Of a DNA stretch of 64,000 bases, positions 46,821 to 52,954 are shown in pieces. This DNA comes from Ilumatobacteraceae bacterium (lineage in GTDB: Bacteria; Actinomycetota; Acidimicrobiia; Acidimicrobiales; Ilumatobacteraceae): positions 1-64,000 of the forward strand of contig JAJTFJ010000004.1 of assembly GCA_021298435.1 (NCBI GenBank), in the 5' to 3' direction. Every line of letters starts with the position of its first letter. Positions within the stretch are counted from its first letter, which is position 1. The notes beneath the pieces are model-generated. The model was not told the DNA's origin. It did not search any database and saw only the letters and a program-made list of their open reading frames with translations. The position numbers were made by a program, and so were the translations under genes.

Positions 46821-47831
46821 TCACTGCAAAGTGATCCCGGGCCCGCCTGATTCAACAAGTCCAATGTCCGTCCAGAGACCAGAATCGACCAATTCAGTCG
46901 CAATCGTCTCGCTCACCGCAGCAAGTAAGCCACCAGATGTCTGAGGGTCCATACATAAAGCCACATGTGCTTCTGATGCCGAACTTGTGAGGTGTTCACC
47001 CACATATGCCCGATTACGTGGATCGCCACCGGTGCGATGCCCCGAGAGTGCGACATCGAGTGCACCTGGATACAACGGCAACGATTCAGTTGCGATGCGC
47101 AAAGTCACCCCTGAACGTTCAGCAATTTCCCAGCCGTGACCTGCAAGTCCGTACCCCGTGACATCAGTGACGGCATGCACGAATTGATGATGCGCCTGCA
47201 GGGACTCGGCTGCCGCTCTATTCAGTGTGCGCATTCCAGCAATCGCAGCCTTCTTGTCAGCATCTGTACCCGCAGCAGTCACCAGACCAGTACCCAATGG
47301 CTTTGACAACACAGCAACATCGCCAGGTTGTGCGCCACCCTTACGGAAAATGCGAGCTGGGTCGACAACTCCTTGCACCGCTAAACCAAAAATTGGTTCC
47401 GGATTACGGATGGTGTGACCACCCGCGATGGTTCCACCTGCAGCTGCAACTGTTTCTGATGCAGCAGCAAATATGGCCGCAATCACTTCTGGTGGAAGTT
47501 CTTCTGGGAATGCTGCGATGTTGACGGCCAACACCACTCGCCCACCCATTGCAAACACATCACTGCATGCATTGGCAGCAGCAATGGCACCAAAGTCCGA
47601 AGGATCATCAACCAAAGGTGGAAAGAAGTCTGTGGTGCTCACCAACGCAAGATCTGGGGTTAGTTGATACACCGCAGCATCATCGAATGGGGCAAGTCCG
47701 ACCAATAAAGAGGTGTCAAAACCCATTGGCATGTCTTTGACCATGCCCGCCAACAAAGAGGCTCCCCACTTTGCGGCGCAACCACCGCACGATGTCCACT
47801 CGGTCAGTTTGATGGATGCGTTGTTAGGCAT
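46821..47831 (-). CDS. selD: Selenide, water dikinase (selenophosphate synthetase)
   Basis: Makes selenophosphate from ATP and selenide, the selenium donor for Sec-tRNA. 336 residues from ATG 47831; an upstream in-frame extension overlaps selA and is rejected. The active site is TSCGGCAAKWG (C15, C18, K21), with cysteine rather than selenocysteine. The AIRS-type domains include GLAPFDDAAVY, a glycine-rich KPLGTGLVTAAG and PQTSGGLLAAV. TAGTTT is 7 nt upstream of the start. Confidence 0.95.
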   Translation of the reverse strand: MPNNASIKLTEWTSCGGCAAKWGASLLAGMVKDMPMGFDTSLLVGLAPFDDAAVYQLTPDLALVSTTDFFPPLVDDPSDFGAIAAANACSDVFAMGGRVVLAVNIAAFPEELPPEVIAAIFAAASETVAAAGGTIAGGHTIRNPEPIFGLAVQGVVDPARIFRKGGAQPGDVAVLSKPLGTGLVTAAGTDADKKAAIAGMRTLNRAAAESLQAHHQFVHAVTDVTGYGLAGHGWEIAERSGVTLRIATESLPLYPGALDVALSGHRTGGDPRNRAYVGEHLTSSASEAHVALCMDPQTSGGLLAAVSETIATELVDSGLWTDIGLVESGGPGITLQ

Positions 47832-47857: not shown

Positions 47858-49156
47858 GTGACGACTCCCGCGACACATCCACCTTCCGTTGACTCACTGG
47901 CTCGTCACCTGTCGCACACGAGTTCTCTTCCGCACTCTCTTTTGGTGGACTGTGCACGTCGCGCAGTTGCACAGTCACCTGCACAGGCCACGACGACTGC
48001 AGAACAATTCGCACACGAACTCTCTACTGCTCTTTTGACGGATGTTGTCAATGCAACAGGCGTGTTGTTGCACACCAACCTTGGCCGTGCTCCGCTCGCC
48101 CACACCACTACTGCTCGCCCAAGCAACATTGAATTCAATCTCGCCACGGGCGAACGTGGCTCTCGACAAACTGCCGTTTCAGCCCTCGTGTCATCTCTGA
48201 TTGGCGCAGAGGCAGCCATCGTGGTGAATAACAATGCTGCAGCCGTCATGTTGGTTCTTGCATCTCTCGCACAGGGCCGAGACGTTGCGGTATCACGAGG
48301 CGAAAGTGTTGAGATCGGCGGCGGGTTCCGCATCCCCGACGTGATGGAGCAATCAGGCGCACGACTAGTTGATGTGGGCACCACGAATCGAACACGCCTG
48401 CGTGACTACGCAAAAGCGATTGACAACAAGCGCAATGACATTGCACTTGTCATGAAGATTCACCCATCGAACTTTTCCATCGAAGGCTTTACCGAAGACA
48501 CTGCGGTGCAGGAACTTGCGACACTGTCTGTTCCGGTCGTTGCAGATATCGGGTCAGGACTTCTTGATAACACCGCACCATGGCTGCAAGGACACACTCC
48601 AACAGTCCCATCGTGGTTAGTGAATGAACCAGCAGCAAAACAAGCTCTTGCAGATGGCGCATCACTTGTCACGTTTAGCGGCGACAAACTTTTGGGTGGA
48701 CCACAGTGCGGCATCATCGCAGGGCGCGCAGATCTCGTTGCTCAATGTGCAGCACACCCTCTCATGCGTGCACTTCGCCCCGGCAGCCACACAATGATCT
48801 TGCTGCAACAGGTGCTGCTGTCCTACGCCTCACGCACTGTGTGCACTGATGTTCCTTTCTGGCGAATGGTTGCAACACCGGAGCCTGAATTGCGCGCACG
48901 TGCCGAAAGCATCGTGGCTACTGCAGGCATGGGTTCCGTTGTTGACGTTGATTCTTTGGTCGGTGCTGGCTCAGCACCTGGCAGCACGATTGCATCAATC
49001 GGTGTCGCTCTGAATGGTGATCAACGTGTCGCATTACGAGCCCACACCACACCCGTGATTGCACGCACAGTCGGCAACACCACGTATCTCGACATGCGCA
49101 GCATTGCCCCCGCCGACGACCATGTCGTGGTTGAGGCGATGTCTCGTCTGCATTAA
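47858..49156 (+). CDS. selA: L-seryl-tRNA(Sec) selenium transferase
   Basis: PLP enzyme that turns Ser-tRNA(Sec) into Sec-tRNA(Sec), 432 residues, GTG start. VVNATGVLLHTNLGRAPL and GERGSRQTAV are conserved; the PLP lysine is in SGDKLLGGPQCG near residue 275. Followed after 2 bp by selB. Confidence 0.95.
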   Translation: MTTPATHPPSVDSLARHLSHTSSLPHSLLVDCARRAVAQSPAQATTTAEQFAHELSTALLTDVVNATGVLLHTNLGRAPLAHTTTARPSNIEFNLATGERGSRQTAVSALVSSLIGAEAAIVVNNNAAAVMLVLASLAQGRDVAVSRGESVEIGGGFRIPDVMEQSGARLVDVGTTNRTRLRDYAKAIDNKRNDIALVMKIHPSNFSIEGFTEDTAVQELATLSVPVVADIGSGLLDNTAPWLQGHTPTVPSWLVNEPAAKQALADGASLVTFSGDKLLGGPQCGIIAGRADLVAQCAAHPLMRALRPGSHTMILLQQVLLSYASRTVCTDVPFWRMVATPEPELRARAESIVATAGMGSVVDVDSLVGAGSAPGSTIASIGVALNGDQRVALRAHTTPVIARTVGNTTYLDMRSIAPADDHVVVEAMSRLH

Positions 49157-49158
49157 CC

Positions 49159-50844
49159 ATGACTGTCATTGCCACTGCTGGCCATGTTGATCACGGTAAG
49201 TCTTCTTTAGTTCTGGCTCTCACGGGCACTGACCCAGACCGTTTGGCAGAAGAGAAACGTCGCGGAATGACGATTGACCTCGGCTTTGCTCACACCGATT
49301 CTCTTAGTTTCGTTGACGTACCGGGCCACATTGACTTTCTCAACACCATGGTGGCTGGCGTACACGGCGTTGACATTGCACTTCTTGTTATCGACATAGG
49401 TGAGGGCTGGAAACCACAGACAGTGGAACACCTCGACATTCTCATGTTGATGCAGGTGCGACACATTGTGGTGGCTCTCACGAAAGCGGATGCAAGCACA
49501 CATGATGAAACGACTGCACTGGTTGCTCGCACTGAATCAGAATTTGCATCCCGTGGGCTGGCGCCCAGCAACATCATCAGTACTTCTGCACACACTGGCT
49601 TAGGAATTGAAGAACTTCGTGATGCACTCACTTCGCTCACCCAGGTTGTCTCAGCTGCATCCACGACATCACCTGCACGATTGTTTGTTGATCGTGTCTT
49701 CACCATCGCTGGTTCAGGAACAGTTGTCACTGGAACACTCAGTGGTGCTGCACTTCATGAAGGTGATGAACTCATCGTTGCGCGCACACAGCAAGCCACC
49801 AGAATTCGCAGCATCCAACAACACGGTGCCGTCAGCAACAGTGCACTTCCACGCAATCGCTGTGCACTTAATCTGACCAATCTCAGTACTGATGACATTC
49901 ATCGTGGTGATGTTCTTCTCTTCAATGACTCCTGCTACTCCACTGAAGTTTTTGATGGGTCGGTTGAATTGGCCTTCGGCACCCGCGCACTAGGAACTGC
50001 GATCTCGCCAGTTCGTAATGGTGGTGGCTACACCTTGCATATTGGAACTGCACGCCGGGCAGCATCGCTTCGATTTCTTGGCACAGATCACAGCAACGTT
50101 CGCATTCGATTCGCCGGTGCTTTGCCTCTCATCCCCGGCGACAGATTTCTATTGCGCCGCACTGGCGATGACATCACCGTTGCGGGCGGATCAATTCTTG
50201 ATGTCAAACCAATTGCACGCACTTCACGGGCAACACCAACAGGCACGATGTCTTCCATCCTTAAACATCATGGATGGGTAACTGTTGCAGAAGCAACACA
50301 ACTCGTCGGAGAACCTGTTGCTCCGGTTGTTGATGTTTGGGTAGCGACTCCAGGCACTGTTCGCGTCACAACCGATGCACTGGTTGATCTCCTCGCACAT
50401 ACTGGTGAGGTTGACACCACACAGTTGCAACCATGGGAACGCGCACTCATCGCCACTCTTCCCAACGTGACCATCACACAAGGCATAGCAACCGTCGGAG
50501 TCAGCAATCCATTGCTCTCGCACCCGTACGTTGAGTTGTTTCTTTCGTCTGGCGTCACAACACCCGACACCAAATCACTCGACCGAGATGTGATTCGCCG
50601 TCTCATTCATGCCGGTGTTCTCTTTGAACATGACAACATCGCGTTTCATGCCGATGCGCTACAGAGTCTCCGACCCACATTGCAGAATCTGTGGCATCAA
50701 CACCCCAATGGCTTCTCTGTCGGTCACTTACGCGAAGAACTGGGCATCACCCGCAAACATGCAGTGCCGCTGGCAACGTGTCTCGACAAAGTTGCACTCA
50801 CAAAGCGAGTCGGCGATTCCCGACTGCCCGGATCTTCCTGGTGA
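49159..50844 (+). CDS. selB: Selenocysteine-specific elongation factor
   Basis: Carries Sec-tRNA(Sec) to UGA codons marked by a SECIS hairpin, 561 residues. The G domain shows [25 protein letters not shown] and the TKAD site; EF-Tu-like beta domains follow, then winged-helix repeats ending in [19 protein letters not shown], the SECIS-binding part. The stop codon abuts the 3' end of the tRNA-Sec gene on the other strand. Confidence 0.95.
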
Positions 50845-50940
50845 TGGCGGAGGCGGACGGGAATCGAACCCGCCAGACGGGGATCGCCCGTCTCGTCTGT
50901 GTTGAAGACAGCGAAGCCCACCAGGTACTTATACGCCTCC
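50845..50940 (-). tRNA. selC: tRNA-Sec, anticodon UCA
   Basis: 96 nt with encoded CCA. Acceptor GGAGGCG pairs with CGCCTCC, discriminator G. The anticodon loop CTTCAAC holds TCA at 50905-50903, closed by CTGT/ACAG. The long variable arm has a 7-bp stem AGACGGG/CCCGTCT; the T arm is GCGGG-TTCGATT-CCCGT. The eighth acceptor pair, usual for tRNA-Sec, is a T-C mismatch. The 3' end is directly next to the selB stop codon. Confidence 0.93.
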
Positions 50941-50965: not shown

Positions 50966-52411
50966 ATGAGCACCACCGCTCCACTCTTGCCCAATGGTTT
51001 CGTCGTCATCGTGAAGCACGAATGCGCGACCTGCCAAATGGTTGAACCTGTCCTCGCAGCCATTGCCGCCTCAGGCGCACCGCTCACCGTGTACACCCAG
51101 GACAACCCAGATTTCCCAGAGTCTGTGCCGCACACCCTTGACAGCACGTTGGCCGTGTCATGGCATTACGACATCGAAACGGTGCCCACTCTTCTCGTCA
51201 TTGAAAACGGCGTCGAGGTCGGCAGAACATTCGGATGGTCACAAGCGGAATGGCAACGCATCACAGGTATTGACTCATTGGGAGCAGACCTTCCAGTGAC
51301 TCGTCCCGGTTGCGGATCAATGAGTGTTGACCCTGACCGCGTTGACGCATTGCGCGCCGCATTCACAGACTCGCCTGTCATTTCTCGCCACATCGAATTC
51401 TCGTCAGCTGAAGATGAATTTGAAGCGATGTACGCACGTGGATGGACCGATGGACTTCCTGTCATACCACCGACACGTGAACGCGTCTTGCGCATGCTCA
51501 CTGGCACCACACGTCATCCACAAGACATCGTCGCCATTGCTCCACCGGACTTAGTGGAACTCACTGTTGAGAAAATTGCCATCAATGCAGTGATGGCTGG
51601 TTGCTTGCCCGAATACATGCCGTGGGTTATTGCCGCACTTGAAGCTGTGTGCAACGACCAATTCAATATGCATGGTGTTCTTGCAACAACAATGCCCGTG
51701 GGCCCCGTCATCATTTGTAACGGCCCTGGCACACGCGCCATTGGTATGAACTCAGGTATTAACGCCTTTGGACAAGGCAATCGCGCGAACAACACCATCG
51801 GACGCGCAGTACAACTCACTATTCGCAACGTTGGTGGCGGACGTCCTGGTGAAGTTGATCGCGCAACCCATGGCAACCCAGGCAAGATTTCATTTTGTTT
51901 TGCTGAAGACGAAGAGAACTCACCATTCACATCACTTGCAACAGAACGTGGTGTGCCACCCGGACAAAATGCCGTCACAGTTTTTGCTGGCGAAGGACCA
52001 CGATGTGTTGTTGATCAACTGGCGCGCACTCCTGAAGAACTCACGGAGTCTCTTGCGGCATGTCTTCTCACCGTTCATCACCCCAAGTTGGTCATTGGTT
52101 TCGATGCGATTCTCACGCTGAGCCCCGACCATGGTCGCGTGTATGCCGAAGCCGGATGGTCTCGAGAAAAGTTGCTTGCAGAAATCACTGAGCGCACACT
52201 GCGACCAGGCGCAGACTTGGTCCGCGGAGCACAAGGCATGGCCGAAGGGGTTCCACCACATCTCCGTGACAGCACACTGCCCAAATTCCGCGCCGGAGGA
52301 CTGTTACTGACATATGCCGGCGGCGGCGCGGGCTTGTTCTCCTCCATCGTTGCCGGCTGGGCAAATGGGGCAATCGGCAGTGACCCCGTCACTCGCATCG
52401 TTGGCTCGTGA
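50966..52411 (+). CDS. Thioredoxin-like domain fused to a large uncharacterised domain; UGSC partner
   Basis: 481 residues. Residues 1-105 form a thioredoxin-like fold with the redox motif HECATCQM near 18-25 and the cis-Pro segment ETVPTLLVI. A linker with RPGCGSM follows, then about 350 residues beginning WTDGLPVIPPTRERV, rich in glycine loops (FGQGNRANN, AGGGAG) and without a recognised function. It sits 12 bp before the selenoprotein gene. A job as reductase or catalytic partner of the selenoprotein is inferred from the Trx domain and context. Confidence 0.8.
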   Translation: MSTTAPLLPNGFVVIVKHECATCQMVEPVLAAIAASGAPLTVYTQDNPDFPESVPHTLDSTLAVSWHYDIETVPTLLVIENGVEVGRTFGWSQAEWQRITGIDSLGADLPVTRPGCGSMSVDPDRVDALRAAFTDSPVISRHIEFSSAEDEFEAMYARGWTDGLPVIPPTRERVLRMLTGTTRHPQDIVAIAPPDLVELTVEKIAINAVMAGCLPEYMPWVIAALEAVCNDQFNMHGVLATTMPVGPVIICNGPGTRAIGMNSGINAFGQGNRANNTIGRAVQLTIRNVGGGRPGEVDRATHGNPGKISFCFAEDEENSPFTSLATERGVPPGQNAVTVFAGEGPRCVVDQLARTPEELTESLAACLLTVHHPKLVIGFDAILTLSPDHGRVYAEAGWSREKLLAEITERTLRPGADLVRGAQGMAEGVPPHLRDSTLPKFRAGGLLLTYAGGGAGLFSSIVAGWANGAIGSDPVTRIVGS

Positions 52412-52423
52412 CATACTGAAGAC

Positions 52424-52954
52424 ATGGCAACTGGACTCACCATTCTTGATCCGACCAGTGAGTCGAATCCGTCCACGCGACAATTGCTTGCGCGCCCTGA
52501 CGACATCAAGGGCCACACCATCGCACTGCTTGACATTTCGAAGCCACGCGGCAATGTTTTCCTCGACCGTCTTGAAGAATTACTGACCGAGCGCGGCGCA
52601 AAGGTCAAGCGCTTCGCGAAGCCAACTTTTACCAAGCCTGCACCTGTTGATCTTCGACACGAGATTGCTACTCAATGCACTCTTGTCATCGAAGCTCTTG
52701 CTGATTGAGGCAGTTGTACGTCGTGCAGTGTGCATGACATCGCAGACTTAGAACTTCGCGGCCTCCCCGGCATCTTTGTGGCATCAGCGGAATTCGTGAC
52801 CGCTGCTACGGCACAATCAGAGGCACTTGGCTTTCCGGACATGAAGCGCGTCTTCACGTCGCACCCCATCCAAGATCGCACCGATCAAGAGATGCGTGAC
52901 CTGGCAGATCAGTTTTTTCCCGAAATCCTCGCAGGCATTACCTCAGGTCAATAG
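52424..52954 (+). CDS. UGSC-family selenoprotein with in-frame UGA (Sec95)
   Basis: Reading TGA at 52706-52708 as selenocysteine gives 176 residues; stopping there leaves an incomplete 94-residue fragment. Around the codon the protein is EALAD-U-GSCTSCSVHD, the U-x-x-C redox motif of the UGSC family, with one more Cys at 101. Upstream is a Rossmann-like fold (ILDPTSES, TIALLDISKPRGNVFLD); downstream is a helical region ending in SGQ. A SECIS-like hairpin starts 12 nt after the UGA. selA, selB, selD and tRNA-Sec are next door. Members are known from marine metagenomes; the reaction is unknown. Confidence 0.9.
52720..52738 (+). promoter_or_regulatory. SECIS-like hairpin
   Basis: GTCGTGCA (52720-52727) pairs with TGCATGAC (52731-52738), with one G-T pair, around the loop GTG; opening the top A-T pair gives a 7-bp stem and an AGUGU loop. 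The loop lies about 20 nt after the UGA, the usual distance for a bacterial SECIS, and holds the GU expected by SelB. Confidence 0.75.

Follow-up and report, generated by a model that had tools for sequence, protein, structure and literature searches.

A UGSC-family selenoprotein gene from an Ilumatobacteraceae bacterium, its CORE partner and a probable distant kinship to GrdB/PrdB

The UGSC family is an abundant group of selenoproteins without an assigned function. We analysed one of its genes within a window of 64 kb (the whole stretch of DNA studied; Table 1), and on comparative grounds its product is almost certainly a genuine selenoprotein, in which an in-frame UGA is recoded as selenocysteine (Sec). 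Its Sec-bearing domain is taken, from profile comparisons, to be a distant homologue of the Sec domain of GrdB/PrdB, and the gene directly upstream, which carries an otherwise unnamed domain called CORE here, appears from its genomic linkage to encode an obligate partner. This kinship and this partner, both absent from the preliminary description of the locus, are the new parts worth following: together they lead to a concrete and testable enzyme hypothesis for the family.

Table 1. Features of the UGSC locus, in coordinates of the 64-kb window.
Feature	Position	Strand	Basis
selD, selenophosphate synthetase	46821..47831	-	TIGR00476, 326.2 bits, over cut-off; likely start, deduced from the ORF
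selA, selenocysteine synthase	47858..49156	+	TIGR00474, 407.1 bits, over cut-off
selB, Sec-specific elongation factor	49159..50844	+	TIGR00475, 274.4 bits, over cut-off
tRNA-Sec (UCA)	50845..50940	-	ARAGORN; RF01852, 62.7 bits
Partner gene, Trx domain and CORE domain	50966..52411	+	Directly upstream of UGSC; Trx profile, fold match, linkage
UGSC-family gene, almost certainly of a selenoprotein	52424..52954	+	176 aa, Sec at residue 95; translation, NF041046/PF24696 matches, homologue alignment
TGA codon, almost certainly read as selenocysteine (U95)	52706..52708	+	In-frame TGA retained in relatives; TGT/TGC there in Cys forms
Putative bacterial SECIS hairpin	52720..52738	+	8 bp stem, GUG apical loop, 11 nt past UGA; frozen codons, covariation

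The ATG at 52424, the TGA at 52706-52708 and the TAG at 52952-52954 lie in a single frame, which bears out the preliminary proposal that this TGA joins two open frames of the same register with Sec at position 95. Translation with TGA read as U gives a protein of 176 residues containing D-U95-G-S-C98-T-S-C101, that is, the U-G-S-C motif and the further Cys three residues on that had been described. The joined protein scores 157.7 bits against NF041046 (NCBIfam, cut-off 125) and 152.5 bits over residues 6-173 against PF24696 (Pfam, cut-off 25). These family profiles cover both sides of the TGA, and the part preceding it scores only 56-59 bits by itself. In the column alignment, U95-G-S-C98 occupies the conserved family site, where Sec or Cys is followed by GSC, and no profile other than those of the UGSC family matched the 176-residue protein. 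The family identity, first suggested without these curated models, can be regarded as firmly established at the sequence level, and the protein is an ordinary new member, with nothing defining that differs. Its nearest named records come from uncultured freshwater Actinomycetota bins, several of them labelled Acidimicrobiaceae or Ilumatobacteraceae. Some public metagenome-assembled records are titled Bifidobacterium breve or Ferrithrix thermotolerans (L035, L042, L044, L069, L087, L103, L110); these titles look wrong, and the genes belong to an Acidimicrobiia-like actinobacterial group.

The 2008 report on Global Ocean Sampling data (PMC2398784) first describes the family, in agreement with the marine origin given in the preliminary description, and places its proteins among the most abundant selenoproteins of fresh and sea water samples. 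Current reviews list UGSC with unknown function (PMC13188914).

The family was found in 38 of 61 related genomes, with exactly one internal TGA in nearly all copies, and over the cut-off in 35 of the 396 genomes of a phylum-wide draw of Actinomycetota. The internal TGA is retained across the phylum, and the Cys forms of the family carry TGT or TGC at the same codon, so that both variants proposed for position 95 occur among homologues. Standard gene calling ends the protein at residue 94, a truncation that had been foreseen; the homologues do not end there and run on past the TGA with strong conservation. U95 and C98 are nearly invariant among UGSC proteins, and the pair is invariant in an alignment of 48 sequences. 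A rough scan of the 64-kb window for other TGA-interrupted frames returned one unconvincing candidate; since it overlooked the UGSC gene itself, it says little on such frames.

Just 3' of the UGA, at the distance anticipated in the preliminary description, lies a hairpin (52720-52738, GUCGUGCA-GUG-UGCAUGAC) with a G in its apical loop, as in bacterial SECIS elements. The folding energy of the region is unremarkable by itself (z -0.14 to -1.24), and we therefore turned to comparative evidence, which proved decisive. Across 98 distinct close homologues, codons 99, 101, 102, 103 and 105 each use one synonymous codon, whereas flanking codons vary freely: the mean codon entropy is 0.20 bits within the 99-105 stretch versus 1.36 outside (Mann-Whitney p 1.4e-5). 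The pair 52723-52735 among 80 distinct TGA sequences is G-C in 64, A-U in 11, G-U in 4 and unpaired in 1. In distant paralogues, where Cys101 is replaced by Trp, the facing Val codon shifts too (TGC...GTG to TGG...GTC) and the pair is kept. We picked 21 distinct sequences among the hairpin-bearing ones for a covariation alignment, in which 92.9% of cells are paired and 17 are double-changed, versus 3.8 in shuffles (0/500); sliding the structure along this alignment lowers pairing to 14-54%. The full stem and the apical-loop AGT codon are both missing from all eight distinct Cys forms examined. Some divergent Sec forms also lack a stem in the same register, among them L156, L157 and L158, in which UDGC or UPGC replaces the UGSC motif. 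Given the codon freeze and the covariation, and despite its ordinary folding energy, the hairpin is best read as a functional SECIS.

The genes for SelD, SelA, SelB and tRNA-Sec all lie just upstream of the UGSC gene, as the preliminary description had stated, and many close relatives share the conserved block selD-selA-selB-tRNA-Sec-CORE-UGSC. The listed selD frame starts at 48014 and overlaps selA on the opposite strand; ATG 47831 is the likely true start, with which the overlap disappears. The conserved TGA, the frozen SECIS codons, the covariation and this adjacent machinery together are the reasons for reading the TGA as Sec with near certainty.

The partner protein consists of an N-terminal thioredoxin domain (about residues 4-102, with a CATC motif, C20/C23) and the CORE domain (~340 residues, from about residue 145 to the end). 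The former has a weak Trx profile match and a fold match to thioredoxins (Z 10.4), to which the matches of a structure search with the whole protein are confined. Profile searches found no Pfam, NCBIfam or PDB relative of CORE. It adjoins UGSC, in either order and sometimes fused to it, in nearly all loci on a long enough contig, and it is present in all 35 UGSC genomes of the 396 and in 37 genomes altogether (Fisher p 4e-48). We rejected CORE as a GrdE homologue (HHalign 0.1%) and as a relative of the GRDB Sec domain or of UGSC, for which there was no signal. Many paralogues, the more distant ones, lack the thioredoxin domain, and their gene neighbours include short-chain dehydrogenases, CoA ligases, acyl-CoA dehydrogenases and amidohydrolases, which suggests that different copies may act on different substrates. 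One related genome (G047) has ten UGSC matches in varied neighbourhoods (L002, L141-L148), with CORE adjoining those examined that have enough flank. Two loci encode single-frame UGSC-CORE fusions (L155, L180), and the site of L180 has neither Sec nor Cys (GDMGTSS). A fusion of UGSC with a domain named Unknown_1 is mentioned in the 2008 report (PMC2398784).

The Pfam GRDB model (PF07355) ends at the Sec codon, and genome matches to it halt at the TGA and leave a conserved domain beyond it unannotated. Both the region after Sec and its kinship to UGSC are consequently invisible to Pfam, and more generally homology between selenoprotein families can be concealed when a Pfam model is truncated at the Sec codon. 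We read the GRDB genes of Actinomycetota through their own TGA for comparison; standalone PrdB-like frames of this phylum also run past the TGA (loci within L121-L140). When a UGSC profile made from 70 diverse sequences was compared with the GRDB/PrdB Sec domains, HHalign gave 96.0% with a score of 60.9; on another pair of alignments, built separately, it gave 96.4%, in both cases with Sec aligned on Sec. The controls reached at most 3.1% and a score of 21.5 in 40 column shuffles, and 1.3% with a reversed profile. GRDB frames are likewise recovered by a plain hmmsearch with the UGSC profile, at best with E 7e-6 in a set of only 432 frames. The likeness is limited to some 60-90 residues within the Sec domain, running past the motif. 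The partial literature coverage contained no statement of a UGSC-GrdB link; one review gives the motif of GrdB as UxxCxxC (PMC13188914).

Despite this kinship, UGSC should not be taken for a glycine reductase. The genome (a bin 76.5% complete) has no match to PF07355, with no GRDB N-terminal domain found in it, and none to GrdE (PF09338, the pyruvoyl partner), which also gave no match in the listed genomes of the same family. GrdA (PF04723) had no match in G000-G036, all of the same genus or family and including this incomplete bin. Because none of the three was found and CORE is unlike GrdE, the chemistry of glycine reductase cannot be copied onto UGSC.

We lean, by a modest degree, towards a mechanism in which the UGSC selenoprotein and the CORE protein encoded upstream together make up a GrdB-like, selenium-dependent reductase that thioredoxin recycles. 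The selenolate of Sec95 would attack a polarised bond in a small substrate bound where UGSC and CORE meet. Displacement of the intermediate by Cys98 would then leave a selenenyl-sulfide, which the thioredoxin domain (CATC) of the CORE protein would reduce back. The invariance of the U95/C98 pair fits the proposed attack and resolution. In GrdB-type enzymes, Sec has been proposed as the nucleophile on a polarised carbon bond, and the same has been argued for a GrdB-like defluorinating system (PMC10838667). Weighing against this mechanism are the short span of the likeness to GrdB, the many paralogues that lack a thioredoxin domain, the dissimilarity of CORE and GrdE, and the lack of any GrdA, GrdE or GrdB match in this incomplete bin.

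The predicted structure bears on two other functions. The AF2 model of the UGSC protein (pLDDT 91.4, pTM 0.86) has five strands alternating with five helices throughout, and Sec is placed where the helix after the third, central strand begins. Its best structural matches (Foldseek, VIA-align) are Rossmann-like proteins, and the protein is thus predicted to have a Rossmann-like fold, whereas the literature has assumed that of thioredoxin. A generic thiol or selenol redox protein of thioredoxin-like fold, such as a peroxidase or disulfide reductase whose likeness to GrdB would be confined to the active-site loop, could account for the UxxC at a helix start, for the thioredoxin domain of the partner and for the placement of UGSC among Trx-fold proteins in the literature. 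We consider it unlikely: the thioredoxin topology (beta-alpha-beta-alpha-beta-beta-alpha) includes consecutive paired strands that the predicted model lacks, the best matches are of another fold, and the GRDB match extends beyond the motif. More doubtful still is a role in electron transfer, with UGSC as a metal- or Fe-S-binding subunit that would activate CORE or supply it with electrons. It draws on the top fold match, chain H of the methyl-coenzyme M reductase (MCR) activation complex (8s7v_H; Z 12.6, with 130 residues aligned at 2.9 A, versus Z 10.0 for the next), but the identity is 15%, a common Rossmann-like fold shows no function, U95 and C98 alone are invariant among the possible ligands, and a PDB search by sequence profile finds no such relative. 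A reading without recoding, in which the TGA is a true stop or an error of sequencing and what follows it is an independent frame or the remnant of one, agrees with the standard gene call but is already refuted by comparison, as the identical TGA in dozens of independent genomes, the freeze of the SECIS codons, the covarying stem and the complete Sec machinery next to the gene make it vanishingly improbable.

Extending the GrdB-like, two-protein reading to the whole family is more tentative, and we hold it with somewhat less than even confidence. UGSC and CORE may form a new class of selenium-dependent reductases, made of a GrdB/PrdB-type selenolate domain and a substrate-binding partner that replaces the pyruvoyl subunit and may bring its own thioredoxin. 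In Actinomycetota this class would exist as many substrate-specific copies, beyond the amino-acid-fermenting anaerobes.

Among known systems, the MCR activation complex chain H (8S7V), probably Mmp7 to judge by its size, is the closest solved fold to UGSC, a likeness of fold only: it belongs to an archaeal protein complex and has no sequence-level match to UGSC. PDB sequence searches with the UGSC, CORE and GRDB profiles returned no convincing relatives. The UxxC selenoproteins of thioredoxin fold resemble UGSC in having this motif at the start of a helix and differ from it in the predicted topology. GrdB and PrdB (PF07355), the Sec subunits of glycine, sarcosine, betaine and D-proline reductases, have in common with UGSC a Sec region made of a strand, U-G-[ST], a helix and an LE..GIP entry to the next strand, whereas UGSC lacks the N-terminal domain of GrdB and has CORE as its partner instead.
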